DNA of 64,000 bases from Heliocidaris erythrogramma (Eukaryota; Echinodermata; Echinoidea; Camarodonta; Echinometridae). How positions within the stretch are numbered: position 1 is the first letter of the stretch; each line of letters begins with the position of its first letter. Of the stretch, positions 24,451 through 61,500 are shown piece after piece. The notes under the pieces are model-generated. The model ran no database searches. It saw only the letters and a list, made by a program, of their open reading frames with translations, and was not told the origin of the DNA. The stretch is taken from the NCBI GenBank assembly GCA_025617745.1, contig CM046855.1, forward strand, positions 48,091,813 to 48,155,812, given 5' to 3'. Position numbers and translations under genes: made by a program.

Positions 24451-24467
24451 ACTGGGCAATATTTAGT

Positions 24468-29499: not shown

Positions 29500-30165
29500 T
29501 ACTAATGTTTGGAAAGTGACGTTTACAAAGTTATGTCATAAGAGAGTCTTGTGGGTAAACTATAATGTTTGACCTGAAATGACCTTTGACCTTACCATGT
29601 GACCTCTGATGACAGCATAACATGCAGGTCCCCTTAGTGCATCTACAACCCAAGTTTGGTTGAAAAGTGAGTGACGGTTGCAAAGTTATCTGTCATAAGA
29701 GAGTCTTGCAGGTAAACTTTAACGTATGACCTTTGACCTTATCATGTGACCTCCAACGGCACCATAATATGCAGGTCCCCTCAGTGCATCTACAACCCAA
29801 GTTTGGTTGAAAAGTGAGTGACGATTGCAAAGTTATCTGTCATAAGACAGTCTTGCAGGTAAACTTTAACGTATGACCTCAAATGACCTTTGACCCTATC
29901 ATGTGACCTCCAACGGCACCATAACATGCAGGTCCCCTTTATGCATCTACAACCCAAGTTTGGTTGAAAAGTGAGTGACGGTTGCAAAGTTATCTGTCAT
30001 AAGAGAGTCTTGCAGGTAAACTTTAACGTTTGACCTGAAATGACCTTTGACCCTATCATGTGACCTCCAACGGCACCATAACATGCAGGTCCCCTCAGTG
30101 CATCTACAACCCAAGTTTGGTTGAAAAGTGAGTGACGGTTGCAAAGTTATCTGTCAGTTAGGGTG
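29500..30165 (+). repeat. Tandem array, about 157-bp unit, with DR1-like sites
   Basis: About four units carry tacaacccaagtttggttga, gcaaagttatctgtcataag and gagtcttgcaggtaaacttt. Each unit contains tgacctttgacc, in two units the perfect tgacctttgacctt. Spacing of the first marker is about 145, 158 and 157 bases. The open frames on the minus strand simply follow the repeat. Confidence 0.8.
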
Positions 30166-37483: not shown

Positions 37484-37573
37484 ATGAAGATTGCACTGGC
37501 TCTTTGCCTGGTTTTGTTCGCACTTGGTGTGATGACCTTACCTTTCGACGAGAAGGACAACCTCGACTCGGAG
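37484..37573 (+). CDS. Signal-peptide exon
   Basis: Thirty codons start at ATG in context gccaagATGaag: M-K-I-A, hydrophobic core L-A-L-C-L-V-L-F-A-L-G-V, then M-T-L-P-F and an acidic tail. Signal cleavage is likely after G or T before L-P-F. The exon ends in GAG at a perfect GTAAGT donor, phase 0. Confidence 0.85.
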
Positions 37574-40500
37574 GTAAGTGTGATGGGTTTTATTATTATT
37601 TTAGTTGTCACATGTAAATTATCTTCGTTCCCACACTCTTGTCAAAAAAAATTAAAATTGGTGAAATTTACCCACTATAAAGGGAACATGCATGTTCCTG
37701 CATGTGGATAAAAAGGGAATATTATTATTTAAATTGTACTCATCTTTGGGTATATTGTACCCAATATTGTGTTAGAGTTTACCCAGAAAATATGCATATT
37801 CCCTTTTTATCCAATAGTTGGCAAACATTTCAATTTTAGAGTGGGTTGAAGTCTAGTTCACATTTATCCCGGGAAACAGCCTTAAAATAATGATTATATG
37901 AAAATAAAAGGGGTTCACATAAGCGCAATATTGCTTTACATTGTTCGCAAGTGAATATTATGGCCTTTGTTGCGGACAGCTACTTCTTTTCCAGGGGTAC
38001 TCGTTTTTCCAAAGGTTCGTTTTTCTGAAGGTTCATAATTCCGAAGGTTTGTAATTCTGAAACACAAATTTCCCATAGGGGGTTCATAATTCCAAAAATG
38101 AAATATGGTTAATAATTCCGAACATTATTTTGATGTATTACGCCGAATCGTTATTCCGAGGTTTCGTAATTCCGAAAATGAAATCTATCTATCGTTGTAT
38201 CTTCTCCGGGTTCGGAGGTTGATTGCAACATTGTTCCACACATCTCTGTTCGGTCACGGTGCCATTCTAGTGCACTCTTGCAATGTTTTTCTACTTCCCA
38301 GCTGGTTCTCGGCTTCCCTCTTGGTCTATAACCTTCTACTCTCCCTTCCAGCATATCTTTCAAGAGACTCTAATGTCTTTTGATGTGACCAAAGTATTTT
38401 GCCTTTCTTTCCTCAACTACATGTAATCCTATCAGGGTAGGTTGTTTACGCCCTGCCATGCGGTATATTTCTTTGTTAGTTTTCATCTGTTTCCATGATC
38501 ATTCTCCTGTATATCCACATTTCAAATGATGGGATTTTCAACATACAACAGAGCAGACCAGACATAGCAATTAATAAGTCTCATTCTGAATGCAAATTTC
38601 ACTTTCCTGACCGTAAAGAAGTCTTTCATTGCCAGGAACGTATTTTCGATTCTTCTTTTGATGTCTACCTCGCATTTGGCATCATCTGTGATATTTGCCC
38701 TAAGTAGATGTAATTATTGAAACGAGAAAGGGCTCGTAAATCCGAACATGGAAAAGGTTTCATAATTCCCAAGGTTCGTAATTCCGAAAATGGAATAGAG
38801 CCCTAGACATAACTTTTCGGAATTACAAAGCTTCGGAAATATGAAACCTTTTTCATTCTCGGAATTCATATATGATGAACCCTTTTTCGTATTAGGAGGT
38901 ACGAACCGTCGGAGTAAACGAACCTTCAGAAATACGAACCTTCGGAAAACGAACCTTCGGAATGATGAACCTTCCGCAGAAGAACGAAACCTCTTTTCCA
39001 CCCTAAAACTCGTTCATTTTATGGTTTTCATTTTACTGCGGTGGTATTTCGAGGCCGTGAACAGCGTCATAAATATGTCACCGATGCTTTATTGGTCATA
39101 CGTCCACTAATTGTAATGATTTTTATTATTTCCTGACCAAATATCAATGTGATGAGGATGCACAGCCCTGGAAACACACAATATTAGACGAAGCTCCTTT
39201 TATCAGGGGATTATATCACGCATGTAACTAAAAGAAAATGATTTCTTCCGTACCTCCTTGAGTGAATAAAATATTAAATCAATTGTACTTTGCTGTTATG
39301 AGATTTATTATTCTAAAATAAGTTGAGTAAAATTTTACCCACTATTGGATAAAAAGGGAACATGCATATTTGTTTGCTAAAATTTTACCCAATATTGCGT
39401 AAATTTTACCCAGTTTTTAAGTACAATTTTATATAACTTTGAATGCCCTTGAATGGAATACAAGGACATATCGCACGAGCTATGAGCATATTTCACGAGT
39501 CGGCACGACGAGTGAAATATTTTCAAAGCGAGTGCGATATACCCTCGTGCCCCACGAAAGAAAATACATTCAATATTATTATTATTATATACCTATATCA
39601 TGACTTGTGTATGCCTATTTTGTAGCAATTACAAACAATACTGCCCGTCAGTCCCTCGATCTGATTTCAGGGGAGCGTTTCATCAAGCGTTTTGTCAGTG
39701 ATTTTTACTGACAAATTTGCTCTCAAAAAAATCACTGACAAAACGCTTGATGAAACGCTCCTCAGGTTATTCATACAGGTATGTAATCTGGGCCGAGCAA
39801 CAAGTGACGTAAATTGTTACTGCGCGTCCGGCTGCGCGTATCCATTGTTTAAGCCTTACTGCGCGCATGCACTTTGATAAAAGCGCACTGACCAGGCAAA
39901 GTACTATACAAAATAATGTTGACTGCTTTGAGGGGCACGGTGAAAACTATGGCCCGAGGTGAGCTCGCAACTGTGCTATGCCTAGTCTAGTTCTAGACGT
40001 TTTTAATTATTTTGTCCGTAAAACAATGAAGCTATATGAGCTATACAAACCCCGTGTGTACGTGTACGTGCGCACCCAGCGTAGAACAGTGCAAAGTCCA
40101 CTTATTCACTTATCCCCATAAATTCACCTTTCGGGGAAGGTGAATTTGTGGGGAGAGTGAATCAGTGGACTTCGCACCATTTCTTTCTTCTTTAGCTCAG
40201 AAATTCATTTCAAAGACAGATGAAATACGATACCGTAAAGTAATTCTCATCGATCGTTCTTTCGAAATTTCGTTCGGTGTACATGTATGGTGCCGGCCGG
40301 CCGCGCGCCCGCGTATCTAAATTGCCATAGCTAAGAGCGCATTGCATTGCATTTTATTGCATTGTACGCGCGAACAGAACTATGCCCGGTCAATAGTATA
40401 CAAATAATAAATGTTTATGAGTGCAATGGACAAAATATATTTCATGAGGTGAAAGATGAAATGATCCATTCAACGAGGCGGATGACACCTAAAAATAGCT

Positions 40501-43500: not shown

Positions 43501-44389
43501 CGCGACTGTCTTCCTGCATATTTCGAATTGAAGAATCGAGCTTAATGAATTGGTCAATGTTTCTAAATGATTCGGGTCTTAGTCGAAACATACAATAACT
43601 TTTGCCTTTTTGACAAAGATTGTGGCCGGGCACAAACTCATATATATAGCCATGCATTTGTCATTGGATAGTTAACCCTGCCGTTAAATTACATTTGCAC
43701 GTAGGAAAGAAATGATGGAGAGTTTCATGAAAAAATATTTTCTTTTAAATGACATAGACCCAATTATATAAATATATGTTTTAAATATTGATTACGTTTT
43801 CAGAATGAAAATTTTGTTTTACCATCGGTACTACCCCAAAAATTTGCACGTTGTATTTTACAATGCAATGCAGGATTTGCATGTCACTACTCTGTTCAGT
43901 TCTTTTGTACATGTACAGGTGCATATCCTGTAGTTCAAATTCAATAAACAACATTGAAAATTCGTGATTTTTCAAATGCATTTTTATGAATTACAATTAT
44001 AAATTATGCGCTTGTAAATGAGCAAAAAACCGAACATAACTGAATACAGGATGCACATGTAAACCCTTAATTGCATTATGATATATAAAGAGTGAGTGAA
44101 CGATCAAACCTTCGTATTTTAGGGGGGGGGGGGGCGAGGTATATGTTCTATTGACATCCTTATTTATCAAAAGCATAAATAAATTAGCTTTATTATTTAT
44201 TTCTTCTTTGTGTTCCTTTCCTCTCTACCCATTCAGGAAGATGGAAAATCGGTATGTATAACACTGGATGTTTTTTAATAGAACGACAATGAAAACATAT
44301 AATGAATGTATACTTGTATATATGGTATATATATATAATTTATCATTGACTATTGTGTATATATATATATATATATATACATGTTTTAT

Positions 44390-44457
<68 letters not shown>

Positions 44458-45574
44458 CGTCAATGATCGCCACCATCTTCCTTGTCGCCACAAATTTTGA
44501 ACATGTTCAAAACTTCCGTAGCGAGAGCGCCGAGGTCGCAAAGCACGCCACAATCGTCTCAAGAGCGTATTAAAAGCGACATGTCCGTAGCTCTAACGTA
44601 TCAGCATCGCCTTAAGCGTACTTCAAGCGCATTGGAAGCGGCTCCTATCGCCCATGCTTTCAGGCCAGTTCCCAAGACAATTTTTCCTCAGTTATGTTTC
44701 TGTGCATGTCATCTGCGCATCCTGGCTGGTATTGTTTCGTCATCACAACAGCAAGACAATCACTGCGTACGTCAAAAATGGAGTTGGACGGCGATTCTGC
44801 CACGCTTTGCAAAATTTTCACAGAGCGCCATGGTCGCCATGATCGCCTTTCTCGTGAGATGGGGGCAAACATACGTACATTGGTAACAGCAGAATTCAAT
44901 GAATTTCTAGTTATTTGAGAGCGAGCGAGCAAAAATTTGTGCTCATGTTGTATTCACAGAGTGCATGCATAATCAATTGATTTATATGTTTTGGGATATT
45001 TTACATTGATTTAAATTCATGAAACTGCTTTCTATTTTTTTAATGGGCTTTTATTATTACGAGATACGTGAACCGAGATTACCCTACTCTTCATCTTGGA
45101 AGTTTTGCTTCACAATCAGTACTCAATCAATGGTTTGCGAGGTCGCATTGCGGCAGAGCAAAAACTTTTTGCGAAAATGACTAAATTTTGCCTTGCTGTA
45201 ATTTCCTCCCTTCATAAAGTGATGCACCCTTCCAATATGCTAATGGTTTACAAATTTGTGGATGGCAAAAATGTACCTTACATTGACCAACGGATTTTTT
45301 AAAATCGAAATGTCTTTGCCATTATTTTTTTCTATCAGAGGGCCGAAAGAGAGAAAGACAGGAAGGAGAATGCATTTGTAAACTTTGGAGTAGAAGATAA
45401 GGTATGCATGAACATTGTATGTCTAATTATTATGCAATACAGGTAAATGACGGACAACATTCTTTCACTATACTGTATAAGTTTTTAATTCTGTTTCTAT
45501 CGTTATGATACACTCTAAACGTAGTTGGGTAAAATCTTACCCAATATTGGGTAAAAAGGGAACATGCATGTTTT

Positions 45575-45606
<32 letters not shown>

Positions 45607-48600
45607 TCTTTGGGGGGAGGGGTGGGTAACCTCAAACTGGGTAAATTTTACCCAATATTTCATAACGCTTTACGTAAGCAAACATGCATTTTCACTTTCT
45701 ACACAATATTGGGTAAAATTTAAACCAGGTTTTTCAGAGTGTATAATCAGTTTGAGTCTCATCAATGAATAAGAAACATTTGTATTGAACATGTAGAATC
45801 CAATTCATTAAGAAGGCGCATGTTCCCCTTGTTCATTTAATTTATTAAAAAAAAAATTGTCATTCGTTTGTTTTAATACACAAACGAATAAAATATTTTT
45901 GTTTTCATTGATACGAACAAAAAAGGCACAAAAATGGTCGTCAGATGGAATATGTCGATGGTAAGGATCTTTTACATCATGAACATTAGACCTATGTTCT
46001 TCATAAAATAACATTGCAATCTTCAATTATTGATACCGACCTTGTAGTCAGCATGAGAGAGAGAGAGAGAGAGAGATATCATGGAGAAGAGCTGAACTTA
46101 TTCGAACTGGAAGTTTCTTTTTTCTTATTTATCATTTCCATGCAAATTGCGCAGCGAACCTCGATAATGGGGGTTATACAGAAAAATCTATGAACCTACA
46201 TCTCTTATCTCTTGATTGTGTGTATGAAAAGTAATAATAATAATTATCATATGCCATTTTTTCTAATAGGAGTACAAGCGTGGTGATCAAAGTAAACAAA
46301 AGCCTAAGACAAGGGGGTTCCAATATTGGTGTTTGAAATATTATACTCATTTATTGTAGTGAATGGAACAAGCATTATTTGAAAGTACATGTAATAAACA
46401 CGGGCTATAGGCTTGGAATTACACTTCTGTTTTCAACATCTTTAGGTTTTAATGATGCTTTCATTCTTATTTCTTAATTCTACAATTGTATTTTTCATAT
46501 TAATTGGCTTCTTTTTTTGTATTCAGATTCATTGGTAGTATAGAGTAAATGATCTTTAAAATGGGGTCTGGAGAAAAATATTAAAGTGAAATCCAGTCCA
46601 GCCAACTGTGGTGAAAAACAAGGCAATTAAAAAATGAAAGAAAACCCACAATGACAGAAAGATAATATTTTAGACGATATTGGATTAACAATAAGAAATT
46701 CACTACTTTGAATTTTAATATTCATTTTCTTCGATTTGGCGAATCTATAGTGTCAATAATGTTAAGATAATTATAAGACAACTCTCCAATTAATTGATCC
46801 TCCGTACAAAATAACTAGAACAAAAATTTTCTAAATTTTATTGCCGAGCATGTTCTGTTTTAAAACTGGGCCTCTTGCATAAAAAGTTGCGTATTTGGGA
46901 CTTGCGTTTAATTTAAATTTTTGAGTTGTAATTAAACGCAACTTTTTATGCAAGAGGGCCCTGGATTAGGAAAGAGTTATTAAACTATTTCGACAAACAA
47001 TATTATTTTGGGGGTTAAATATCACAATAATTATGATACATTTATCCAATCCAATTTATCCAATCAAGCGTGGTGACCAAGATCGGGTATGTATGAACTA
47101 TTGCTAAAATCTAAAGTAAATAATAGCTAAAAACAGTGGCGTTCAAATATTGATGTTTAGCTTGAACCTTTGCAAAATCATTGTTTTGAAAAAAGGGCTT
47201 GCTTAAAGATAGTTATATCAGCATTACTTGGACATAATAGAAGATGGCATTAGGATCGAATTCTTGTCATTTTAAAAATATTTAATCCCCAGCTCTGCAA
47301 CAATTTGGAAAGCGTATATTCAGCCCCAAAACACGTTATACGCTTATCCAATGCAAACAGATTAAGAACAATTTTGGAGAAAAAGAGAAAAATAAATGAT
47401 AAATTACTAAAGATAATTTTAATTCATTCAAAATCATTGTTTTGAATAAACAGGGCTTGCTTGAAGATAGTTATAAGATAAAAACAACTCTTTTTAGATC
47501 TTCCATACAAATGAACTAAAAGATCATGCATTTTCCTAAATTTCATTGCCGAGCACGTTGTGCTTTTAACTGGAATAGGAAAGAGTTGAACAAAGACAGA
47601 GACAATAAAAATATAGCGAGAGGGATAGAGAGGGTTTATTTAAGTATTATCACAAACACTATTACTTTAAAAGAAAAATTTTAACACATTAATATTTATT
47701 CCAACAGGAGTACAAGCGTGGTGACGAAGATCGGGTATGTATGAACTTTTCTGCTAGAATCTAAAGTAAACAGTACCTAAACACAGTGGCGTTCAAATAT
47801 TGATGTTTAGCTTGAACCTTTGCAAAATCATTGTTTTGAAAAAAGGGCTTGCTTAAAGATAGTTATATCAGCATTACTTGGACATAATAGAAGATGGCTT
47901 TAGGATCGAATTCTTGTCATTTTAAAAATATTTAATCCCCAGCTCAGCAACAATTTGGAAAGCGTATATTCAGCCCCAAAACACGTTATACGCTTATCCA
48001 ATGCAAACAGATTAAGAACAATTTTGGAGAAAAAGAGAAAAATAAATGATAAATTACTAAAGATAATTTTAATTCATTCAAAATCATTGTTTTGAATAAA
48101 CAGGGCTTGCTTGAAGATAGTTATAAGATAAAAACAACTCTTTTTAGATCTTCCATACAAATGAACTAAAAGATCATGCATTTTCCTAAATTTCATTGCC
48201 GAGCACGTTGTGCTTTTAACTGGAATAGGAAAGAGTTGAACAAAGACAGAGACAATAAAAATATAGCGAGAGGGATAGAGAGGGTTTATTTAAGCATTAT
48301 CACAAACACTATTACTTTAAAAGAAAAAATTTAACACATTAATATTTATTCCAACAGGAGTACAAGCGTGGTGACGAAGATCGGGTATGTATGAACTTTT
48401 CTGCTAGAATCTAAAGTAAACAGTACCTAAAGACAGTGGCGTTCTAATATTGATGTTTAGCTTGAACCTTTGCAAAATCAATGTTTTGAATAAACAGGGC
48501 TTGCTTGAAGATAGTTATATTGGATAGATATAACTCATATCAGTAATAGAAGATGGTTGTAGAATCGAATAATTGATATCAATTTTTGAATATGTAATCC

Positions 48601-51600
48601 GCATCTCTGTTTGCAACAATTTAGAAAGCGTATATATATCCAGCCCCAAAATACGTTATACGCTTATCCAATGCAAACAGATTATGAACACTTCTGGAGA
48701 AAAGAGAAAAATAAATGATAAATTACTAAAGATAATTTTAATTCTACGAAGATGACGTGTTTGAATACGTCTATGGTTCAGACACCCTGAAGATAAGATA
48801 AAAACAACTCTTTTTAGCTCTTCCATACAAATGGACTAGAAGATCATGCATTTTCCTAAATTTCATTGCCGAGCATGTTGTGTTTTTAACTGGAATAGGA
48901 AAGAGTTGAACAAAGACAGAGACAATAAAAATATAGCGAGAGGGATAGAGAGGGTTTATTTAAGCATTATGACAAACACTATTACTTTAAAAGAAAAATT
49001 TAACACATTAATATTTATTCCAACAGGAGTACAAGCGTGGTGACGAAGATCGGGTATGTATGAACTTTTCTGCTAGAAACTAAAGTAAACAGTACCTAAA
49101 GACAGTGGCGTTCTAATATTGATGTTTAGCTTGAACCTTTGCAAAATCAATGTTTTGAATTAACAGGGCTTGCTTGAAGATAGTTATATTGGATAGATAT
49201 AACTCATATCAGTAATAGAAGATGGTTGTAGAATCGAATAATTGATATCAATTTTTGAATATGTAATCCGCATCTCTGTTTGCAACAATTTAGAAAGCGT
49301 ATATATATCCAGCCCCAAAATACGTTATACGCTTATCCAATGCAAACAGATTATGAACACTTCTGGAGAAAAGAGAAAAATAAATGATAAATTACTATAA
49401 AAGATAATTTTAATTCTACGAAGATGACGTGTTTGAATACGTCTATGGTTCAGACACCCTGAAGATAAGATAAAAACAACTCTTTTTAGCTCTTCCATAC
49501 AAATGGACTAGAAGATCATGCATTTTCCTAAATTTCATTGCCGAGCATGTTGTGTTTTTAACTGGAATAGGAAAGAGTTGAACAAAGACAGAGACAATAA
49601 AAATATAGCGAGAGGGATAGAGAGGGTTTATTTAAGCATTATGACAAACACTATTACTTTAAAGGGCGAGTCAATTAGAATCAACATTGGGGCTAAAAAT
49701 GTAGTACATAGGTCCAATGACACAATTCTGACATTTTTACAGAAAAAAAATTGCCCAGTAACAAGAAATTGGTCAAAAAACTCACTAATTTGGGAACGCC
49801 CCCAAAAATTGACAGCTGATTGGCTAGAGCGATTTGACGTAGCATCGGGAAGTCCCCCGCGAAGCCACTAAGTTTGACTAATATGTTGGCAATGTAAATG
49901 AATGATAATTTATCCATTTTCATATCACTATTTATACAATTTCGACAATCTTTAAGTCCCCCAAAAGGATTTGAATAGGTTGTTTAGACATTTTAGTAGA
50001 GGTCAAATGACAAGTCTGGCATTTTTTCAAACACTTCACCCATGATAATTCCTCTTTTGGATTAGGTTTATGTTTTGGAAAAACGTAATATTTTACAGAC
50101 AAGTAGACGTGTGGACAGTCGCTTTACTGCTGACCGTACCTTGCGAATCTTTGTGTGCGTGCTTATGATAACAACCAAGTACACTGAAAGACTGGATGAA
50201 AGTCTAAATATATTACAACAATTACAGCAAAATCGTGTGCTGCAAGCTAGCTGCCTCCCGGGGGGGGGGGGGGCCACTCACATATATATGTCACACATGT
50301 ATGTGCCGCTGTGACGTCCCCCACTTTCAACCTTCTCGGGTCGTTCCCATGATATGCGATTTTCAGATTTTCACTAACCGCACCTCGATTGGCTTCCGAC
50401 TCGCTCCCTAGAATATGAGAAAACAATGCGCACAGCCTATTGTCCGGGAACGGTCGCTCCCTAGCCTCCCAGGCCAGCGCAGCGGGGAGCTGGGCGGCCT
50501 AGTGCCCAATAACTGAACGCGGTATTACTAGTGCTAGCGGCGGCTCAGCGAGATCAATCTGCATGCGACATCCAGCCAGTGCAGTGGCCCGGCATGTACA
50601 GCGTTAAAAACAGCGCTGCGACCGCTGACTCAGCTCATGCACCGTATGTGTACCAGAGTAGACAGTAGTGAGATCGCGAGCAGCTAAAATTAGCTCTGCC
50701 CATGAACCCGTTCGCTCCTTAGACCCTCAAAAATGAGCTTCCTCAATTAACCATTTAGCTCCTTAGCCCCCTGTTTTGAGATTGGCAGCGGCACACCCAC
50801 ATCCAAAAACAGGTTGAGTGCCCCCCCCCCCCGGGCTCTCCGGTACGATACGGTAGACCTACCCTCTTTTTCTCCAGTGACTCCAGCTTCAGAACTGCAG
50901 ACCGACTCTTGTTTTTTTAGCTCCCTGTGTTTGGCTTCCAGTTCCACAGCCCTCAGTTCCCAGTCTGATGACAGGGATAGCTGTCGGCCGCAGCATTTTA
51001 TTCTTGGGCGCAAATCCTAGCTGGTCATACAGCCCCTGGCCTGAGGGCCTGACTATCGAAGTCCTCCTCCCTGAAGTGGTCACTGCAAACAGTACTGTGA
51101 GCGGAAGGGCCATCCCACTGAGCTAGCTCGCGTCAGCTTGATCCTTGAAATCCAAATTTTTCGAGTTGTATCATCTTTAGGAAAGGTGTGCAGACTGACA
51201 CCATCGCTGGTGCCTTTGCTGCACCCAGCAACAACACATCTCCTCGGCATTTTCTTGAGATATGCACTCCTATCATGCCTATCCCAAATTCCCTGCACTG
51301 GATATACACAGACAAGCGTCGTCCGCTAGCTAGATGTTCCCGATGGTACGTCACAGGTCACCTGACAAGGCACGTGACTGGGCCCTATTTTTCGAGGGGC
51401 GTGACAGACTAGCTGATAAACGTGCGATTTAGGCAATTTCAACGAAGCTTAGAGAAGTACACAGATCTTTTTAATAAAAAGTATATGCGATTTCTAGCAG
51501 TATTGACACAATACTTTGATATTATCATGAAATGTTATTCTAATTGACTCGCCCTTTAAAAGAAAAATTTAACACATTAATATTTATTCCAACAGGAGTA

Positions 51601-53675
51601 CAAGCGTGGTGACGAAGATCGGGTATGTATGAACTTTTCTGCTAGAAACTAAAGTAAACAGTACCTAAAGACAGTGGCGTTCTAATATTGATGTTTAGCT
51701 TGAACCTTTGCAAAATCATTGTTTTGAATAAACAGGGCTTGCTTGAAGATAGTTATATCGGATAGATATAACTCATATCAGTAATAGAAGATGGTTGTAG
51801 AATCGAATAATTGATATCAATTTTTGAATATGTAATCCGCATCTCTGTTTGCAACAATTTGGAAAGCGTATATAAATCCAACCCCAAAATACGTTACACG
51901 CTTATCCAGATTAAGAACACTTCTGGAGAAAATAGAAAAATAAATGATAAATTACTAAATATAATTTTAATTCATTCAAAATCATCAATGTTTTGAATAA
52001 ACAGGGCTTGCTTGAAGATAGTTATAAAATAAAAAACAACTCTTTTTAGCTCTTCCATACAAATGAACTAAAAGATCATGCATTTTCCTAAATTTCATTG
52101 CCGAGCACGTTGTGCTTTTAACTGGAATAGGAAAGAGTTGAACAAAGACAGAGACAATAAAAATATAGCGAGAGGGATAGAGAGGGTTTATTTAACCATT
52201 ATGACAAACACTATTACTTTAAAAGAAAAATTTAACACATTAATATTTATTCCAACAGGAGTACAAGCGTGGTGACGAAGATCGGGTATGTATGAACTTT
52301 TCTGCTAGAATCTGAAGTAAACAGTACCTAAAGACAGTGGCGTTCTAATATTGATGTTTAGCTTGAACCTTTGCAAAATTATTGTTTTGAATAAAAAGGG
52401 CTTGCTTAAAGATAGTTATATCAGCATTACTTGGACGTAATAGAAGATGGCTGTAGGATCGAACTCTTGTTATCAATTTTTCAATATCCGCATCTCTGTT
52501 TTCAACAATTTGGAAAGCGTATATCCAGCCCCAAAATACGTTATACACTTATCCAATGCAAACACTTTTGGAGAAAAGACAAAAATACATGATAAATTAC
52601 TTAATTTTAATTCCATGAAGATCACGTTTTTGAGTACGTCTATGGTTCAGACACCCTGGAGATAAGATACAAACAACTCTTTTTAGCTCTTCCATACAAA
52701 TTAACTAGAAGATAATTTTTCTGAATTTCAATGCCGAGCAGGTGTATTTTTAACTGGAATAGGAAAGGGTTGAACAAAGACAGGGAGAAGAAAAATACAT
52801 CGAGAGGCATAGAAAGAATTTATTAAAGTATTTTGGCAAGATATCAAAATAATTAAGATATATTTATTCCTAAAAATTTAACACATTAATATTTATTCCA
52901 ACAGGAGTACAAGCGTGCTGACCAAGCTCCGGTACGTATGAACCTTTCGCTAGAATCTAAAGTAAACATTAGCTAAAGACAGTGGCGTTCCAATATTGAT
53001 GTTTACAGGGCGGATCCAGGACTTTGTATAAAAAAAAAGGGGGGGCACACAAATCTCAAAATTTTTCTGACAAGCCCCCCCCCCCCAAAAAGAAAGCTTA
53101 TCATTTTTTTGTGTGTTTCACTTTTGTTGCAGAATTCTCTGACAAGCAATAAAAATTCATGAGTTCTAAGGGGGGGGGGGCACAATTCCAAAAAGAGGGG
53201 GCACAATTTACAATTTTCTGTCAGAGGGTGGGGCCAGAATTCCCCCCTTAAATCCGCCACTGGATATTTAGCTAGAACCTTTGGAAAATCATTGCTTAAA
53301 GACAGTTACATGAGCATTAATTGGAAGAAATGGAAGATGGCCGTAGAATCGAATTCTTATTATCTAACCTTTTATATTCAATTCCCACCTCTTTTTTCAA
53401 CAATTTGGAAAGCGTAAATCTAGCCTCCAAACCCGTTATACGCTAATCCAAAACAAGACGATCGGAAAAACAGATTAAGAACACTTTTGGATAAAAAGAG
53501 AAAGACTAATGATAAGTCACTTATAATTTTAATTCCGTGAAGATTATGTCTTATGTTTGAATACGTCTACCGTTCAGACATCCTATATTACAATTTGTTA
53601 TTTAGTTTAGTTTGTTGTGGTGAGATGTGTTTTTGAAAGGTTGCCTTGGTCACTGGGGAGCATTGTTAATGTAAC

Positions 53676-53709
<34 letters not shown>

Positions 53710-56700
53710 GGGGGGGGGGGGGGAGGTGATCATGAGAAAAAAAATGGCGGAAACACATAATTGGTTTACTGTAACTACAATGTCTCTGCTGCTGAGGGTA
53801 CTTTTATTACTACTATATCATTCATTTATCCAAACACATATATCATAATGAGTTATATGGGGATGCACATCAGCTGCAACTATAAATAATGTTCGTGTTA
53901 TACAAAAGATGACAATAAGAGCAATTACTTTTAGCAAATATAGATCACCTTCGCGCCCTTATTTCATTCAGTATATGATACAAGGCAGAATGATGCAGAA
54001 AGACGCTAAGACGCCACTCCTGCTTAGAGTGAGAACAGAGCATGGCAAGAATTCGATATCATTGCAGGATCAGAATTATAGAATAGTCCGCCGAAAGATA
54101 TGCTTTTTCCATTCATTCTGCACTGAGACCAGTGCGTATGACATAAACATTGAAAGTATTAGAAAATTTCATAGAAATAGAACTTTTATGAAACAAAAAA
54201 AAAAAAAATTCTTGCAGCACGAATGGGCTGCTTTGAGGTAAAAAGGCAACACCTTGTTGACAGAATGCCACAAGGCATGGCTGCTATCATCAAATGTATC
54301 AGATTTCCACCAAGAACTGAACAAACTGCCTCCAGAAGAGTGGACATTGCTTTACGAGAAAATCAAGCTTCCCCCTGACAATTATCCCCAGACCACTTTT
54401 GTCAGGACATTTTTTTCCAAAACCCCTATCCCCGGAGAATACCCCTGAGGACAGTAAGCATCTAGGATATTTACATTCGGTTAGATGTTCTGAAAGTTCT
54501 ATCCGTTTGGGGTGTCCTTAGAGGTAATTGTGCTTCAGTGAAAATTGTCTGGGGTTAATTGTTAATTAGAGAGCTAATTGTTTGGGGGAGTATTCATCCA
54601 CTCATTATGAGTGAACTGAAAATTCAATTACTGATATAGCCATATATAGCCATATAGCCATATAGACCTTTATAAGGAGCTGGTCTAATAATTTGTTCCA
54701 AGGCTGTATATACAGGCTTAAATTTCTTCTTTTTTTCTTCTTCTGCTACTACTGCTTCTTCCTCTTATTTTTCATCTTCTACTTCTTCTTACTCTTTTTT
54801 CTTCTTTCTAATGGTAGTACTATGTGCCTTAAAAACCAAAGCATAATTGGATCCGGAGGGGGAAGGGGCAAAACGGTCGCGGCACTTTCAACCTCATGAC
54901 AAATCGAAACATGAAAAATTGTTGTTTTTAGTGTCATTTTTTTTTTACATTTGTGCAATGGGGGAAGGAATTTTTTGAAGGAAAATGCTCCTGGCGGAAT
55001 TACAGCTGGAAATTAATCCCCTACAAAAAAGGGTATGATCACGTCTCGGAAAAGACTTGCGTCCACATCGGTCCGTTAGGACAAATATCATACAGAGGCT
55101 GCTATTATTGAGACAAAGCACGGTGGATAATTATTGTAGAGTTGTAAAAGTGTCAAAGTCGAGTAACTTAGTGTCAAAACACTAAGTTTTGACTGGAGAT
55201 GCGAAGGATTCAATCCACAGGACGGCACTTATTTCCTTGGGAAAAGCATTATATTATCTTCGTTGCTCCTCTCCAACCAGGTGTTAAATGGTAATTTGTG
55301 ATTTGTTAAGCATTGTGAACGTTTGTTAAAAGGCGCCTGGCTGGAATGCTCCACAAGAAGTGGAGAAGGTCCGATGACCTGGATAATATAATATATCTGT
55401 AAAGCGTAGATGTGTATTAGGTGCTATATACATGTAAATTAGAATGTTTCAGCATTATTTTCATATACCCTTCCCTTATTTTTAACCGTTATAGATGATT
55501 TCCATTTAAGCCAATCGTCAGGTCTGGTAATGAGATTGCAAATCTCGAGAAAACTGGCTAAAATTAATTCTTGTATTCACTGTTACATGATACAGAAATA
55601 ATTATGAAGCACATTCTTCGATTTTGCTATGGCGTTGTTGTTGTTTGTTTTTGTTGGTTGCATGGTTCGTTTTAAGTGGATTACCGCGTCATGTTTGCAC
55701 GCGGCTTTAAAGTAAGTGTTTTGGAGTGTTCTGGGGGGGGGGGGGGGTGCTCTATGTGGACTGCTTTCTCAAGTAAATTGACCACAGCTACATAATGTTG
55801 TTCTTCTTTGCAGTGTCCTACTTCAGTCAAGATTTGGAAAGATTTGACAGTCCGCTATGCCTACTGCGCAAGTGAGTACAGATCGTCCGTACTATCGCAT
55901 CCGAGAAAATATAACATTAATTTAAAGAAAAGGTTCAGTCGTGGTAAAGATGAAAAATAATTGGTGAGTTTTCTTGTCTTTTTAAATTTAATTTTGGAAG
56001 AATATCATTGAAAAAATATCCCTTTAAAAGGACTGCTCTTCATTTGACCTCAAACTCCATTTGTTTTTGGTCAGCTTCTCTTCTAGAAAAGTCGCTCATT
56101 GGGGGGGGGGGGGGGGCGATTTTTTTTTCTCGCCAGACCTTCAAAATTCGGGGGGGGGGGGGGGGGGTTATGGGGGTCCAGCGTCCCTCCATAATTCCCT
56201 GACAAGCGAAAGAAGAAAAAGGTCTTCATTCTAAAAGGGTGGGGGGGGGGGGCACAATCGAGAAAATGGCGGATCGTCTAGGGTCAAAATGCATACTTTT
56301 CTTCCAAAAGGGGGGGGGGGGGTGCACGGGCCGGAAGTGCCCCCTGGATCCGCCAATGCCCTCAACTGTATTATGATTGTAGTAAGGAAAGATTTTTTTT
56401 GCAACCAAATGAAAGAACTGTTTGCCAGTTTTTTAACACGTTATGTCAGCGATAAAATGTTATTATGATATGGAAAAATATATTTGTAAAACAAATCTGA
56501 CGGAAATTTTTTTTTATGAAGAAGTGGATACAGTTTACTAAATGTTTTTGATTGTGTTTTCTTATAATTTTTTTAAAAATAAATCTGTAACACTTTGAAA
56601 AGAAATTGCTATACATATAATTTTTGTAAATGCATGTTCGTATTGTATTATAATGGCCAAGAATAGGCCTATCACTTTTAAATTCTGCATGTATATATAT

Positions 56701-58198
56701 ATATATATACACACAATTGTTAATAATACTTATTCTAATGTATACATTAATGTATACAAGCATTCGCTTGGATCCAGCTGAGGCACTAGCTTGTCTTGTT
56801 CAAAAAAACTCACCTGCCCCCGACAAAGGAATTAATTAATAAGGTTGAAGATCTGTCAATCTGTCGGTCAATTGAATCTGGTGTCGCCGAAACCACTAAC
56901 CCGTCTCCGTGGTCTAGTGGTTAAGGCATTGGTGTTCTAAGCCAACGACCCGGGTTCGATTCCCAGCGGAGACATTTTTTCAGCCTTTGCAAAAATTTCA
57001 AAAAGGGAGGACAGCTCTGGGGAACTTTGATTTAAGCTACGCAACCATTATTCTCTCATTTCTTTCACATATATATATATATATAGACAAAATAGGAATG
57101 AAAAGTCCGTATACCATGAAAAAATTCGAATTTTCGGCCATAGGCCTTCATCAGGAAATGATGAAAATTTATTAGATAGGTACACAAAAGAGCGTGAAGC
57201 GCAAAAAAAACAACGCAAAAACTCCATGGATACCAGCGCAACCATGGTAGAGATCAGGAAGGAGAGGAGAGAGAGAGAGAGAGAGAGAAAGAGATTTGTT
57301 GCAAGGCCTGCAATCTACTGTACGTGGGCGAAACCAAGCGGCGTCTAGCGGACCGGGTTACTGAACATCTACGTTCCATACGTCTGAACACAAGTGGCTT
57401 GCCTGTTGCACGCCATTTCAACCTCCCCGGCCACTCGGTTGAAGACTTCAAAGTGATCGGCGCCATCAAGTGCAATGGCGATGATCTATCCAGGAAGAGA
57501 AGGGAGGAAAGACTGATTTTCCACCTGGGAACCCTTCATCCTCGTGGGATGAATGTAACATTTCGATCATTTCGTACGAATTGAATGTTTTCTTTTTGTC
57601 CTTTCCACCTTTCTCTTCCATTCTTCGTTCTGCTTTTCTTCTACTTTTTTTTTTCCTTCTCTCCCTCTCTTCCTTTTGCTCTTTACTCTCTTTCTTCACT
57701 ACTTCCTCCTTTTCCCCTTTTCTTCTTTTTTTTTTTTTTTTCCTCTCTTCTTTTCCCTTCCCCCTCTCTCTCCCCCCTTCCACCACCCCTTTCTCTCTTT
57801 CATCTTCCCTTGGTTTCTTTATGACGATTTACTACGTCATCCTCTCTCCCTTTCCTTCCTTCTCGCTTTTGTGTTTTCTTTTGTTTCCCTTTTTCTTTGT
57901 GGCGTGTTTCTCTCTCTCTCTCTCTCTCCTCTTAACTTTCTTTACCTTGGTTGCGCGAGTTTCCATGGAGCTTTGTCCCTTTTAGCGCTTCTCCTTTTTT
58001 GTTTTCTTTTTCTCTTCTTTTATGACGTTTTATTACGCCTCTATCTCTATTTCTTTCTCTCTTTCTCTCTCTCTCTCCTCTTTAACTTCTTTTACCATGG
58101 TTGCGCGAGTTTCCATGGAGTTTTTGCGTTGTTTTTTTGCGCTTCACGCTCTCCTTTTCTCCTTTTCTGCGCTTCTGCTCTATTACGCCTCTATATCT

Positions 58199-58239
<41 letters not shown>

Positions 58240-58448
58240 CCTTCCTGATCTCTACCATGGTTGCGCTGGTATCCATGGAGTTTTTGCGTTGTTTTTTTGC
58301 GCTTCACGCTCTTTTGTGTACCTATCTAATAAATTTTCATCATTTCCTGATGAAGGCCTATGGCCGAAAATTCGAATTTTTTCATCGTATACGGACTTTT
58401 CATTCCTATTTTGTCTATAACTTTGCAAGTCCGAAGCAGAACTATATT

Positions 58449-58508
<60 letters not shown>

Positions 58509-60857
58509 CCTTTTCTTGTATATTTTTATGTATGATATTTTTAAATAAAAGAACCCTGTGGAAGGGCTAAAAAGAGGGGGAAAATATAGTGTGTAGTCCA
58601 ATAGACCCATTTCTGCGTGCTGTGAATGTGATTTTCTGCAAGATTGATTGATTTCTTTTCTTTTTGATTATTTCAGTACCTCACAATATAAATCAGTTCT
58701 GATGTACTGTGGTGCACTCTGGGAATCACCCAGTATATAGTCATAGACACCAGGGGGTGTTTCATAAAGCTGTTCGTAAGTTACGCACGACTTTACGAAC
58801 GACTGGTGATCAGTTCTTGTGCTAAATGATTGAAAATCTGATTAGTATAGCACCCAAGAACATGTACCAGTCGTGCGTAAAGTCGTGCGTAACTTACGAA
58901 CAGCTTTATGAAACACCCCCAGAACATATAGGATCAGATAAACACCTGCATAATGATAATTAATAACTTTATTCCGGCACAGTCGATAGATCCATGCCCG
59001 GGGGGGGGGGGGGGGGGGGGGAGAAAAAAGAGAAAAAAGGGGAGAGAAAACCGTTCCAAAGCACCGCTTTTTTTTTCATACCGTCGTTCCGGCCGTTCTG
59101 ACCGGCCCGGCCCGTTTCGAAGACACCATAGACTTGCCTTCGACACACAGCGTATTTAGCTAATGGGAGCTTGTGTGTGGATGAAAAGTATGCATTTTTA
59201 CCATAAAGGATCCGCTCTTTTTTCGATTGTGCCCCCCCCCCCTTTTAGAATGATAACCTTTTTTAAAATTATTTTTATTATTTGTTTGCTTGTCAGAGAA
59301 TTATGGAGAGAAACTGGACCCCCGAAAAATTTTCGTCGCCAACCACCCTCACTGCGCGAGTTTTCGAGAGCTGGCAAGCCTAAAATATACGGGTCTCCCT
59401 TTTCCAAAAGTTGACAAACGTGCAATTGTGTGCCCCCCCCCCCTTATACAAACTCCTGGATCCGCCCCTTTTATAAGTATAAGTTCACCGACATCCCATC
59501 GAAACGCGTGTATCAAATTTAACATGAGTTTCAATGGTATGTCGGCGAACTTCTCGTTATGACGGTTTGATGAAACGATGCCCAGTTCTGTAGCATCATA
59601 TTTACATTTTTTGCACTTTATATATAGGGCTTGACCTAGCTTTGCTGGCAACGACGGACGGCAAAACACGTGCGCATTTTTTTGGAGTTAATTCATACTT
59701 ATACATCTTATCAATGTATTTTTGCCTTTTAAATGTAATATGTATATGTATATGATTGTGTTATGATTATCGAGTTATTATTATGCAATCTGGTAATTCT
59801 TCATCGGGACGATTTAACAACGTCCGCGGCTGAAGAAGTGAACAAGGTCAATGACGATTCACTTCTTCTCACCCTTGCACCACACTTGGTTATTCAACCT
59901 GCAAATACGTTTCTATATGCTAATATAGATTCGTCTCACTCTTCTACGGAAATCCAGTTCCAAAGAGCCCCGTTTTCAAAAATGTTAATAGTTCCGAAGA
60001 CCATCCTTTTCATGATACGTTCGTTCCGAAGCCCCCCTTTTGTCTTGCGGGCGGCACATACCCACCACTTTTAGAGTCAGGTGCCCCCCCCCCCCCCCGA
60101 TCCACTTTCACTTTCAATTTGTTTTCTAATGTAATAATGTTTTTAAGGTTTAGAAAGAGCTTCTTGCATTAGAATTTTATCTCCAAGCCCCTTCTTTACT
60201 TGATTATCAGTGGAACTGTATATTTATGCATGAATTTGCATAAAAATAAGGATTTACATATAAATAGCTATAAATGGATTTACGGGATTCTCAAGGTCCG
60301 TGCAAAATTTTGCGTTGATCGGTCATATCATGGCCGAGATCAGAGCCCCCCCCAGCCAGAGTGGTGCTTTTGAAATAGCCCAGTACCGTACGGGTTAAAG
60401 ACAAAAAGACCAAATTTTAAAACTCACAAGAAGGTCATTTCTCTATAATTACAGTATTGTACTGAGAGACAGTCAAATTCATGACTGTGATTTCGGTGCG
60501 GTATATTCATAGGACTGCTTTATGATCTCCAGAGAGTCCAGATACCCTGCTTACCTGGAATCCATTAATTACTTCACGGTTGACTGAGCACAAAGTAAAG
60601 ACCCAAAATCTTTCTGAAGTAGTGTCATTTTATAAGGTTATGGAACCTGTTTATCAGTGTGGAGTAGAAATATGCAATATTTATTTTTAATTGACAGAAA
60701 TCATCAAAACCCAGACGGTTGTCAAAGCAATGACAAAACTGGCAGATATGTTTAGCGAATATTTCACATTCAAAGACGACTCGAGGGACGATTTTGATTG
60801 CACGAAGATGGGCTCAGCATCACCTCATTATATCGCCATCAAGAATGATGGGAAGGG
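37484..60857 (+). CDS. Secreted protein with tandem RGD/KR microexon cassettes (3' end not found)
   Basis: Exons: 37484-37573, 44237-44251, 45339-45401, cassettes 47708-47734, 48358-48384, 49027-49053, 51596-51622, 52259-52285 and 52905-52931, then 55814-55871 and 60698-60857. All are bounded by AG/GT and phases agree (0-0 through all cassettes, then 1, then 2). The product has a 17-20-residue signal peptide, a short acidic segment, a Lys/Arg/Glu-rich segment, five identical E-Y-K-R-G-D-E-D-R units plus one variant, and a C-terminal domain with at least three cysteines (C-P-T, Y-C-A, D-C-T-K-M). It continues past 60857 in phase 2. I do not recognise the family. The repeat could act through its RGD (integrin-type adhesion) or be cut at KR to release G-D-E-D-R-E-Y peptides. 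Symmetric exon phases allow any number of cassettes to be skipped without frameshift. Confidence 0.75.
37630..37860. repeat. 'ttacccaatattgggtaaa' family element
   Basis: The words ggtgaaatttacccactat, aagggaacatgcatgttcc and gggtatattgtacccaata recur in this family. Relatives are at 39305-39435, 43380-43450 and 45511-45743. Confidence 0.55.
37985..39005. mobile_element. 'aattccgaaggttcg' repeats flanking an RTE-like LINE fragment
   Basis: Degenerate repeats of ggttcgtaattccgaa at 37985-38180 and in opposite sense (cttcggaaatacgaacc) at 38730-39000 flank a minus-strand frame (38363-38151). That frame has M-L-E-G-R-V-E-G-Y-R-P-R-G-K-P-R-T-S-W, a tail motif of many LINE ORF2 proteins. Confidence 0.6.
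39670..39763. repeat. GTTTCAT hairpin MITE, subfamily a, shortened
   Basis: ggggagcgtttcatcaagcg pairs with cgcttgatgaaacgctcctc. The loop is reduced to a few bases after ttgctctc. It sits in the left arm of the 4.1-kb inverted repeat. Confidence 0.75.
41441..42242. mobile_element. Palindromic 'acgtc' element with a nested TIR element
   Basis: Outer arms run from ccttgatagcagaaagtg to cactttctgctatcaggg, with inverted acgtaattacaggacgta and tgacgtcaaaataagacgtc. At the centre, 41583-42092 is a second element with ends gtacactgtaaaaact / agtttttacagtgtac. It carries two inverted tRNA-like units (41757-41825 minus, 41915-41985 plus). A third partial outer copy follows at 42252-42402 in direct orientation. 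Confidence 0.7.
42997..43135. repeat. GTTTCAT hairpin MITE, subfamily b
   Basis: ggggagcgtttcatgaaagg and cctttcatgaaacgcccccc are the ends. The core cttgcatctgattggctgag is shared with other members. It occupies the position in the right arm of the 4.1-kb repeat that corresponds to the subfamily-a copy at 39670 in the left arm. Confidence 0.78.
44237..44251 (+). CDS. 15-nt microexon of the secreted-protein gene
   Basis: The exon reads E-D-G-K-S, phase 0-0. A long pyrimidine tract ending ctctctacccattcag precedes it and GTATGT follows. Its shortness alone makes it uncertain, but splice signals and phase are both good. Confidence 0.6.
44345..44456. repeat. (TA)n microsatellite
   Basis: About 110 bases, almost pure TA with two acatgt interruptions, starting about 95 bases after the 15-nt microexon. 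Confidence 0.9.
45339..45401 (+). CDS. Charged-segment exon of the secreted-protein gene
   Basis: A 63-nt phase 0-0 exon lies between ttttttctatcag and GTATGC. It encodes R-A-E-R-E-K-D-R-K-E-N-A-F then V-N-F-G-V-E-D-K. It contains R-K, a possible basic cleavage site, and ends with an acidic-basic pair like the cassettes that follow. Confidence 0.68.
45511..45743. repeat. MITE with ends acactctaaa / cagagtgta
   Basis: Inverted ends enclose repeated gggtaaaattttacccaatattggg-like words split by a T/G-rich simple repeat (45570-45625). It is intronic and non-coding. Confidence 0.6.
46270..46302 (+). pseudogene. Decayed cassette microexon 1 (donor lost)
   Basis: After an intact acceptor (tctaatag) the sequence reads E-Y-K-R-G-D-Q, but a deletion of roughly 35 bases removed the GTATGT donor, and the nearest GT would break the frame. 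It marks the upstream edge of the array. Confidence 0.7.
46868..46971. repeat. Hairpin MITE inside cassette unit 2
   Basis: gggcctcttgcataaaaag pairs with ctttttatgcaagagggccc. It is inserted between the words aaaactgg and attaggaaagagtt, which are contiguous (aactggaataggaaagagtt) in the other units. Confidence 0.8.
47060..47086 (+). pseudogene. Decayed cassette microexon 2 (acceptor lost)
   Basis: The body encodes K-R-G-D-Q-D-R and keeps the GTATGT donor. The ttccaacag acceptor and first codon are replaced by ttatccaat repeats, so no AG precedes it and it is unlikely to be spliced in. Confidence 0.7.
47708..47734 (+). CDS. RGD cassette microexon 3
   Basis: The 27-nt exon encodes E-Y-K-R-G-D-E-D-R, with acceptor ttattccaacag and donor GTATGT, phase 0-0. 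It is the first intact copy. Confidence 0.75.
48358..48384 (+). CDS. RGD cassette microexon 4
   Basis: Its bases are identical to the copy 650 bp upstream, with identical splice sites. The intron between the two is a near-perfect duplicate of the previous unit. Confidence 0.75.
49027..49053 (+). CDS. RGD cassette microexon 5
   Basis: An identical nonapeptide and splice sites, 669 bp after the previous copy. The following intron contains the Kolobok-type insertion at 49663-51555. Confidence 0.75.
49663..51555 (-). mobile_element. Kolobok-type transposon with THAP remnant
   Basis: A 1,893-bp insertion is flanked by TTAA on both sides. Terminal repeats are agggcgagtcaattagaat and its complement. 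The empty site (attactttaaaagaaaa) is seen in sister units. TTAA duplication, A-G-G termini and a THAP domain together match the Kolobok superfamily. The minus-strand THAP remnant is annotated separately; no DDE-type catalytic region is seen, so the copy is non-autonomous. Confidence 0.78.
50890..51250 (-). pseudogene. THAP zinc-finger domain, frame-broken
   Basis: Frame 1 gives M-P-R-R-C-V-V-A-G-C and L-H-T-F-P-K-D (start and first two Cys of a C2CH finger). A +1 shifted frame gives V-C-S-D-H-F-R-E-E-D-F (third Cys and His). A further frame gives L-G-F-A-P-K-N-K-M-L-R-P-T-A-I-P-V-I (the domain's end). The domain is complete in order but needs two frame changes, followed by a coiled-coil-like A-V-E-L-E-A-K-H-R-E-L-K-K. 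It is a pseudogene, or carries sequencing indels. Confidence 0.72.
51596..51622 (+). CDS. RGD cassette microexon 6
   Basis: An identical nonapeptide with acceptor ttccaacag, 41 bp downstream of the right end of the inserted transposon. The insertion therefore left the acceptor region of this exon intact but moved upstream intron elements about 1.9 kb away. Confidence 0.75.
52259..52285 (+). CDS. RGD cassette microexon 7
   Basis: An identical nonapeptide and splice sites, 663 bp after the previous copy. Confidence 0.75.
52905..52931 (+). CDS. Variant cassette microexon 8 (RAD instead of RGD)
   Basis: It reads E-Y-K-R-A-D-Q-A-P with acceptor ttccaacag and donor GTACGT, phase 0-0. A GGT to GCT change turns RGD into RAD, and the last residues differ. 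Its intron is diverged from the others and holds a separate insertion at 53007. Confidence 0.72.
53007..53272. repeat. 'ggcggatccagg' MITE with poly(G)
   Basis: It starts cagggcggatccagg and ends ccgccactgga (inverted), with several G/C homopolymers and ttctctgacaagca words. It interrupts the cassette-8 intron at gatgttta/tatttagc. Related copies lie at 56085-56360 and 59175-59470. Confidence 0.65.
53685..53724. repeat. (GA)n followed by poly(G)
   Basis: About 28 bases of GA repeats, then acg and a G14 run. Confidence 0.9.
53909..54448 (+). other. Unidentified adjacent open frames
   Basis: Two neighbouring frames (53909-54241 and 54254-54448) have protein-like composition, including T-P-L-L-L-R-V-R-T-E-H-G and L-P-P-E-E-W-T-L-L-Y-E-K-I-K. 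They are separated by a stop and an A12 run. They may be the remains of one transposon-encoded protein. I do not recognise it and see no splice signals tying it to the host gene. Confidence 0.3.
55814..55871 (+). CDS. First exon of the Cys-containing C-terminal domain
   Basis: A 58-nt exon has acceptor ttcttctttgcag and donor GTGAGT. It enters in phase 0, as cassette 8 requires, and leaves in phase 1. It reads C-P-T-S-V-K-I-W-K-D-L-T-V-R-Y-A-Y-C-A: a short strand/helix segment between two cysteines. Confidence 0.72.
56085..56360. repeat. 'ctggatccgcca' poly(G) element
   Basis: Four G-runs of 11-17 bases, ccctgacaagcga words and an end ccccctggatccgccaatg. It is diverged from the copies at 53007 and 59175. 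Confidence 0.5.
56903..56974 (+). tRNA. tRNA gene, probably tRNA-Arg (anticodon TCT)
   Basis: 72 bases. The acceptor stem gtctccg/cggagac is perfect, the D stem is gtct/aggc, and the anticodon stem ttggt/gccaa encloses loop gttctaa with TCT at 34-36. The T arm ccggg-ttcgatt-cccag has one mismatch. TTTTTT follows immediately, a Pol III terminator. Position 32 is G, which is unusual, so a tRNA pseudogene or a Glu-type relative with a changed anticodon is possible. It lies inside an intron of the secreted-protein gene. Confidence 0.65.
57083..58440 (+). pseudogene. Penelope-like element 3' part with GIY-YIG domain and inverted ends
   Basis: 57296-57584 encodes C-K-A-C-N-L-L-Y-V-G-E-T-K-R-R-L-A-D-R, H-F-N-L-P-G-H-S and R-K-R-R-E-E-R-L-I-F-H-L-G-T-L-H-P-R-G-M-N, the GIY-YIG endonuclease end of a Penelope-like protein. 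About 650 bases of T/C-rich 3' sequence follow. The flanks 57083-57255 and 58250-58430 are inverted copies of each other (tcatttcctgatgaaggcct motif, aacgcaaaaactccatgga), the pseudo-LTR-like arrangement known for these elements. Confidence 0.82.
58344..58382 (+). ncRNA. Hammerhead-ribozyme-like motif of a Penelope-like element
   Basis: CTGATGA at 58347-58353, short stem GGCC-tat-GGCC, and GAAA at 58366-58369 followed by the self-complementary aattcgaatt. The order matches the hammerhead core (C-U-G-A-N-G-A, stem II, G-A-A-A, stem III). I could not form a convincing stem I, so activity is doubtful. The inverted copy lies at 57132-57155. Confidence 0.5.
58447..58504. repeat. (TA)n microsatellite at the Penelope-like 3' end
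   Basis: About 55 bases of TA repeats directly after the hammerhead-like segment. Confidence 0.85.
58753..58920. repeat. Hairpin MITE with ends gggggtgtttcataaagc
   Basis: gggggtgtttcataaagctg pairs with cagctttatgaaacaccccc. The stem continues through gttcgtaagttacgcacgac. The outer gtgtttcat is shared with the a and b subfamilies, but the interior is unrelated. Confidence 0.8.
59175..59470. repeat. 'ctggatccgcc' poly(C) element
   Basis: Contains ttcgattgtgcccccc, ttgtcagagaattatgg and the end caaactcctggatccgcccc. Third member of this element type. Confidence 0.5.
60698..60857 (+). CDS. Second exon of the Cys-containing C-terminal domain (last exon found)
   Basis: A 160-nt exon has acceptor tttttaattgacag and donor GTAAGT. 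The single base left by exon 55814-55871 plus AA makes Lys, so the frame is continuous. It encodes T-V-V-K-A-M-T-K-L-A-D-M-F, F-T-F-K-D-D-S-R-D-D-F-D-C-T-K-M and Y-I-A-I-K-N-D-G-K, then leaves phase 2. The domain is unknown to me. Later exons must lie beyond the repeats that fill the rest of the window. Confidence 0.75.
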
Positions 60858-60962
60858 GTAAGTATATATTTTGACGACTATTGAATAACGTTTGAGGGAA
60901 ATGACGCAAAATTTTTGCTTTTACTTTCCTTTTTAAAAAGCGTAAACTTGTAAACTAAAAAG

Positions 60963-60999
<37 letters not shown>

Positions 61000-61009
61000 C
61001 ACTATCTCG

Positions 61010-61500
61010 GCTCTCTCCAACCTGGGGGATGAATGTCTCTTTTTACTATTTTCCTACGTTTTTCCTACGATTTTCTACGTTTTCTTTATTTCTTTCTTTC
61101 TTGTCCCTTTTCTTTTCTTTCCTTTTCTGTTTTCCTTCACCCTTTTTCTTTGACTCTTCTCTTCTTTTTATTTTCCTTTTCTGTTTCTTATTCTCCCTTT
61201 TCTGTCTCTTTTCCTCTCTTTCTTCTCTCTAACTCTCTCTCTCTCTCTCTTCTCTCTAGTGCGCGCGATCTCCCCCCTCTCTCTCTCTCTCTCTCTTTCT
61301 CTCTTCTCCCTCCTTTGCACTTTTGCTTTTGATGCGCTATGCGCTTATCCTTTAGCGCATTGCGCTTTGCTGATGCTGGATGCATTTTTTAATAAAGTCA
61401 TCATTCCTGATGAAGCCCTATGGGCGAAAATTTGAATTCTTTCATCTCTTAACGGTTGTCTTATTCATCATTGACTTTTGTATATATATACTATATATAT
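61010..61500 (+). pseudogene. Second Penelope-like 3' end with hammerhead-like motif
   Basis: It begins with the same gggatgaatgt coding end as at 57546, then T/C-rich sequence, then CTGATGA (61407-61413), stem GCCC-tat-GGGC, GAAA, and finally a (TA)n-like tract. The layout equals that of the 57-58 kb copy. A mariner-like element is inserted directly after it. Confidence 0.65.

Follow-up and report, generated by a model that had tools for sequence, protein, structure and literature searches.

A tandem array of 27-nucleotide cassettes, predicted to encode the charged repeats of a putative secreted protein, resembles in design the polymorphic mucin genes of Schistosoma mansoni

The polymorphic mucins of Schistosoma mansoni (SmPoMuc) consist of a 22-residue signal peptide, a variable number of 9-residue repeats and a non-repeated C-terminal part, and they are encoded by a multigene family whose members recombine. 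The repeats are encoded by tandem units of about 1 kb, each comprising a 27-bp exon with its flanking introns; intron identity exceeds 93-94%, a gene can hold up to about 20 units, and a hammerhead ribozyme is located between exons 9 and 10 (all according to the consulted part of PMC2576457). The schistosome micro-exon genes (MEG) encode signal-peptide proteins made of short symmetric exons, and alternatively spliced 27-bp exons are described for the 10-3 antigen (MEG-4), as stated in the consulted parts of PMC5825161, PMC8293314, PMC4015677 and PMC10526429; about 75-80% of their coding sequence lies in short exons, of 6-36 bp in PMC5825161. Here we present the analysis of a stretch of 64,000 nucleotides (nt) of contig CM046855.1, referred to as the window, whose host is a eukaryote and probably an animal, and which carries a tandem array of 27-nt exon-like cassettes. 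The first-pass annotation of this DNA had stated that no described family has such a design, a claim contradicted by SmPoMuc as described in the consulted part of PMC2576457. We consider it probable, judging from sequence features, that the protein encoded by the locus is secreted and contains a charged, expandable spacer, and that the array grew by unequal recombination.

The array spans from 46270 to about 53600 and comprises eight copies, designated U0 to U7 (Table 1); six of them have both splice sites, while U0 and U1 at the 5' edge are decayed. The common cassette, GAG TAC AAG CGT GGT GAC GAA GAT CGG, is 27 nt long, is translated in phase 0-0 to EYKRGDEDR and is present in five copies identical base for base, each with its own AG acceptor and GT donor; these five copies, as well as the single RAD variant and the two decayed copies, had been correctly recognized at the outset. 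All six intact cassettes are directly preceded by ttattccaacag, and on the donor side gtatgtat follows the five identical cassettes, while gtacgtat follows the RAD variant U7. Two of the three reading frames of the cassette are open, phase 0 and one other. EYKRGDEDR contains three basic and four acidic residues out of nine, giving a net charge of -1, and Ser and Thr are absent from both repeat types (EYKRGDEDR and EYKRADQAP). Units U1 to U6 measure 646-672 nt when an insert in U4 is excluded, and the intron accounts for about 620-645 nt per unit; the oldest unit, U0, has 790 nt and U7 is incomplete. In the remnant of U1 a weak internal AG (top 40% of acceptors) would yield an 18-nt in-frame exon RGDQDR (47069-47086).

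Splice sites were scored with a textbook matrix. The gene had initially been placed at 46270-52931; the array does lie there, but the predicted gene runs from the ATG at 37484 to beyond 60857, with its remaining 3' part falling outside the window. Exon 1 begins with the hydrophobic stretch MKIALALCLVLFALGVM, which by eye resembles a signal peptide. At the level of prediction the expected arrangement is supported, with a signal-peptide-like exon upstream, a cysteine-containing part downstream and matching phases, and the joined predicted exons are stop-free, a second frame besides that of the model being open in the 58-nt exon. On the + strand the donors of the flanking exons rank within the top 0.1-3.8% of 3282 GT sites and their acceptors within the top 0.4-5.1% of 3450 AG sites; the cassette acceptor reaches only the top 7.1%, with its donor in the top 1.0% and the variant donor in the top 0.6%.

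Table 1. Coordinates of the cassette units, the predicted flanking exons and associated features within the window
Feature	Position	Strand	Remarks
TATA-like box TATAAAA	37374-37380	+	about 110 nt 5' of start codon; consensus match only
Predicted exon 1, MKIALALCLVLFALGVMTLPFDEKDNLDSE	37484-37573	+	signal-peptide-like start; phase 0 end at gtaagt; donor top 0.1% of GT sites
Predicted 15-nt exon, EDGKS	44237-44251	+	phase 0-0; acceptor top 0.4%, donor top 3.8%
Predicted 63-nt exon, RAEREKDRKENAFVNFGVEDK	45339-45401	+	phase 0-0; phase 0 is the only open frame
U0, decayed cassette	46270-46290	+	acceptor and EYKRGDQ retained; donor and exon end missing
U1, decayed cassette	47060-47086	+	acceptor lost; KRGDQDR and donor kept
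U2, cassette EYKRGDEDR	47708-47734	+	
U3, cassette EYKRGDEDR	48358-48384	+	
U4, cassette EYKRGDEDR	49027-49053	+	
DNA-transposon-like insert in U4 intron, 1893 nt	49663-51555		19-nt perfect terminal inverted repeats; TTAA on both sides
U5, cassette EYKRGDEDR	51596-51622	+	intron a mosaic of U3-like and U2-like stretches
U6, cassette EYKRGDEDR	52259-52285	+	
U7, variant cassette EYKRADQAP	52905-52931	+	splice sites intact
Predicted 58-nt exon, CPTSVKIWKDLTVRYAYCA plus 1 base	55814-55871	+	phase 0 to 1; acceptor top 1.0%, donor top 0.5%
Predicted 160-nt exon, K-IIKTQTVVKAMTKLADMFSEYFTFKDDSRDDFDCTKMGSASPHYIAIKNDGK	60698-60857	+	phase 1 to 2; gtaagt donor; acceptor top 5.1%, donor top 0.2%

According to the reading we favour, one symmetric 27-nt exon together with its intron would have been multiplied to eight tandem copies by unequal exchange between introns. 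If the locus is transcribed and spliced as predicted, the product would consist of a signal peptide, a charged leader, five EYKRGDEDR repeats followed by EYKRADQAP, and a cysteine-containing region continuing past the window. The repeats probably form a charged flexible spacer, the length of which could change by recombination or by exon skipping without a frameshift, as in SmPoMuc; that the symmetric phases allow such changes of copy number had been proposed from the beginning and is borne out by the cassettes.

Comparison of the units bears on how the array arose. Pairwise identity among the five intact EYKRGDEDR units ranges from 84.5 to 99.7%, and between U3 and U4 there are 2 differences in 669 ungapped sites, plus 3 gap columns. 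The five-unit alignment has 694 columns, 494 of them invariant, 113 variable and 87 gapped, and 19.5% of the ungapped intron columns are variable. Its longest invariant run covers 85 columns (33 before the exon, 27 of the exon and 25 after it), the runner-up being 33; a run of 85 was reached in none of 2000 shuffles of single columns, and in 0, 1 and 10 of 2000 shuffles of blocks of 10, 20 and 30 columns, respectively. Such a block fits a constraint acting on the exon plus its splice signals, and the base identity of the cassettes is partly a result of recent copying. The first half of U5 is U3-like (67/68 and 59/60 columns) and its later part is U2-like (23/25 columns versus 9/25 to U3); such a mosaic points to recombination, the units having swapped intron segments. 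Four of the 27 sites of the variant U7 deviate from the common exon, each with a change of residue. One of them, CAA in place of GAA, is also present in both decayed copies, from which it follows that glutamine may be the older residue, with glutamate having arisen later in the five identical copies. In U0 the first 17 exon bases equal those of the common exon, and of its intron the stretch that aligns best, 106 nt long, shows 73.6% identity; at this rate 17 matches out of 17 have a chance of 0.005, the length of 17 having been picked after the data were seen.

We also asked how far the array stands out from its surroundings. Among 183 AG..GT segments of 27 nt on the + strand, six reach the score of the cassette, all six inside the array. 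On the + strand 12 symmetric open exon-like segments of 12-200 nt were counted, 8 of which belong to the gene model, and on the - strand 9; a stricter threshold leaves 2 on the + strand, one being the exon 45339-45401, and 3 on the - strand. Because the looser thresholds came from this gene's own exons, the counts are a ranking and not a blind test. The array stands out, and the short exons 44237-44251 and 45339-45401 are weak singly. A symmetric open segment of 108 nt (39671-39778), which by eye resembles part of a palindromic repeat, was dropped as an exon.

Several points weigh against the favoured reading. Symmetric exon-like segments are found elsewhere as well (4 more on the + strand and 9 on the - strand), which makes each of the exons at 44237 and 45339 weak on its own. 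The 85-column block is no proof of coding constraint, because it includes splice signals, and a recent conversion tract could be its alternative source. Since U3 and U4 are near-identical, the five identical copies amount to about four independent ones. In U7, the RAD copy, the exon shows no greater conservation than the intron (Fisher p = 0.80). If the assembly has joined near-identical units wrongly, the true length of the array may be greater or smaller. Finally, a homologue was found neither by Pfam, NCBIfam and PDB searches nor by protein searches. The word-seeded search of 5.8 billion predicted proteins gave 1232 candidates, none at E up to 10, and for the C-terminal region the same proteins gave one candidate and no match. 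With the same limit of E up to 10, Pfam returned only DUF7042 at E 0.11 for a 73-residue piece (12.9 bits versus a cut-off of 27) and CDC45 at E 3.7 for the whole sequence, and nothing was returned by NCBIfam or, for the C-terminal piece, by PDB sequences. That no relative was found is weak evidence that none exists, because a match requires short words in common as well as gene calls which join such exons. A likeness of the C-terminal part to NTR/TIMP, noticed by eye, was dropped, as Pfam gave only the two insignificant matches. A marginal tblastn match to the C-terminal exon at 61656 (E = 10), by eye apparently inside a mariner-like element, was set aside as chance. When the last predicted exon (53 residues) was modelled by itself, AlphaFold2 gave a mean predicted local distance difference test score (pLDDT) of 61.7, a predicted template modelling score (pTM) of 0.31 and one helix, and the model was unusable.

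The first-pass annotation had named two functions, multivalent RGD adhesion and peptide release at K-R, as both fitting. Each of them rests on a motif only, and they exclude each other at a given site, because a cut after K-R parts R from G-D; judging from the sequence, we would rank a spacer first, RGD adhesion second and K-R release third. As an adhesion ligand, the protein would present serial K-R-G-D on a secreted stalk, binding integrins with an avidity tuned by copy number. RGD does occur in each of the five identical copies and in what is left of the two decayed ones, downstream of a signal-peptide-like exon. However, the last copy reads RAD, three residues within a repeat rich in R, G and D are weak evidence, the identity of copies comes partly from recent copying, and there is no homologue found that could show conservation of the motif, so we regard this function as unlikely. 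An RGD motif is known also from the SpTransformer proteins of sea urchins. No description of RGD-bearing cassette exons was found in the literature searched, which left most subscription papers outside its coverage. It can be imagined that a non-schistosome animal independently evolved a SmPoMuc-like 27-nt array with integrin-binding RGD, germline copy number and splicing together setting the avidity of the secreted protein, an idea we hold to be improbable.

It is equally doubtful that the array is degenerating or unexpressed, the cassettes being remnants of exon duplication in a dead gene or in one that skips most of them. Two of eight copies are decayed, one more has diverged at the rate of introns, a transposon-like insert sits in one intron and protein searches found no homologues, all of which would agree with decay. 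Nevertheless, six copies retain acceptor and donor in a common frame, no invariant block of the five-unit alignment is longer than the one over the exon, and the flanking predicted exons are open and have good splice signals. In neuropeptide-type precursors dibasic cleavage sites separate the repeated peptides and often come with a Gly for amidation; one exon per peptide copy is unusual for them. Although the dibasic K-R in each intact copy, the signal-peptide-like start and the near-identical repeats would suit a precursor cleaved at K-R and releasing GDEDREY repeatedly, we find this very improbable, since Y precedes K-R with no glycine there for amidation, the cleavage would destroy RGD, the exon arrangement is atypical, and to our knowledge nothing matches a peptide so highly charged.

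Returning to the spacer-encoding array as we favour it, two kinds of sequence were noted in its introns and at its ends. The insert in the U4 intron (49663-51555) contains a THAP-domain match on the - strand (E 5.9e-07), and its features suggest a Kolobok-type DNA transposon, which is our assumption as to the type. It is probably younger than the U3/U4 duplication, because these units differ at 2 ungapped sites and the insert is present in U4 only. In the intron of the last unit an insert of about 255 nt rich in poly-G/poly-C was observed (53007-53261), similar poly-G pieces recurring in the window. GA runs at 46055-46076 and 53679-53708 flank the array just outside both ends, and within 46077-53678 no GA/AG run of at least 16 nt was found between units, unlike in SmPoMuc, where GA microsatellites separate the units (consulted part of PMC2576457). 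The flanking runs may recall these microsatellites or may be due to chance, other GA/CT runs being present at 57267-61296.

If transcribed, the locus would add another example of tandem 27-nt cassette exons extending a secreted protein. Having recent copies, a mosaic unit and decayed copies in one place, it would make the birth and death of a micro-exon array directly traceable, and the repeat number would be comparable among individuals of one species. It may also show how such genes go unnoticed, as simple gene finders possibly fail to join exons of this kind.

Other features of the window were recorded as well. A Mariner/Tc-like element at 61510-63530 has a DDE_3 match on the - strand (E 0.0057, below the curated cut-off) and outer inverted repeats recognized by eye. 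The reverse-transcriptase open reading frame at 24433-25218 is Penelope-like by eye, with RVT_1 at E 0.00077, below the curated cut-off; it matched 2245 proteins at E up to 1e-5, the best among the matches listed being 71% identical over 82%. Tandem repeats lie at 17307-18508 (330-nt period, 3.7 copies, 95% matches, with a long open frame) and at 29515-30156 (157-nt period, 4.2 copies). A tRNA-Arg-like sequence at 56903-56974 (Rfam tRNA, 57.2 bits), either a gene or the head of a short interspersed element, was the only hit at gathering thresholds in the Rfam scan of the window, beyond whose end the predicted cassette gene continues.

The described systems can be set beside the locus, as far as the consulted parts of the respective papers go. 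The SpTransformer (Sp185/333) proteins of sea urchins are also repeat-bearing and are immune proteins, but their genes have two exons with repeats inside exon 2, whereas each repeat here is a separate predicted exon (PMC5491942). The bicycle genes of aphids likewise encode putative secreted effectors with many very small internal exons of one phase; these exons are, however, almost all in phase 2, and the consulted part of PMC9168663 makes no mention of tandem copies of a single cassette. Like MEG, the present gene has short symmetric predicted exons, along with a start that by eye resembles a signal peptide, but exons of up to 36 nt hold 177 of the 548 coding bases seen in this incomplete gene, and with the wider bound of 81 bp (PMC10526429) the share is 298 of 548, again for an incomplete gene and with the signal exon and last exon excluded. 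We treat MEG and bicycle genes as looser parallels than SmPoMuc, with which the locus shares, here at the DNA level, a 27-nt exon repeated in tandem with its introns and giving a 9-residue repeat (PMC2576457). According to the same source the two differ in unit length (about 1 kb in SmPoMuc, 646-672 nt in six units here), in the place of the 27-bp exon, which is exon 2 in SmPoMuc and is preceded here by the predicted 15- and 63-nt exons, and in the predicted O-glycosylation at S5/T9 of the SmPoMuc repeat, for which the present repeat offers no Ser or Thr. Compared with SmPoMuc, as known from that part of the paper, the locus differs in its repeat sequence, which lacks Ser/Thr, in its additional predicted exons and presumably in its host.

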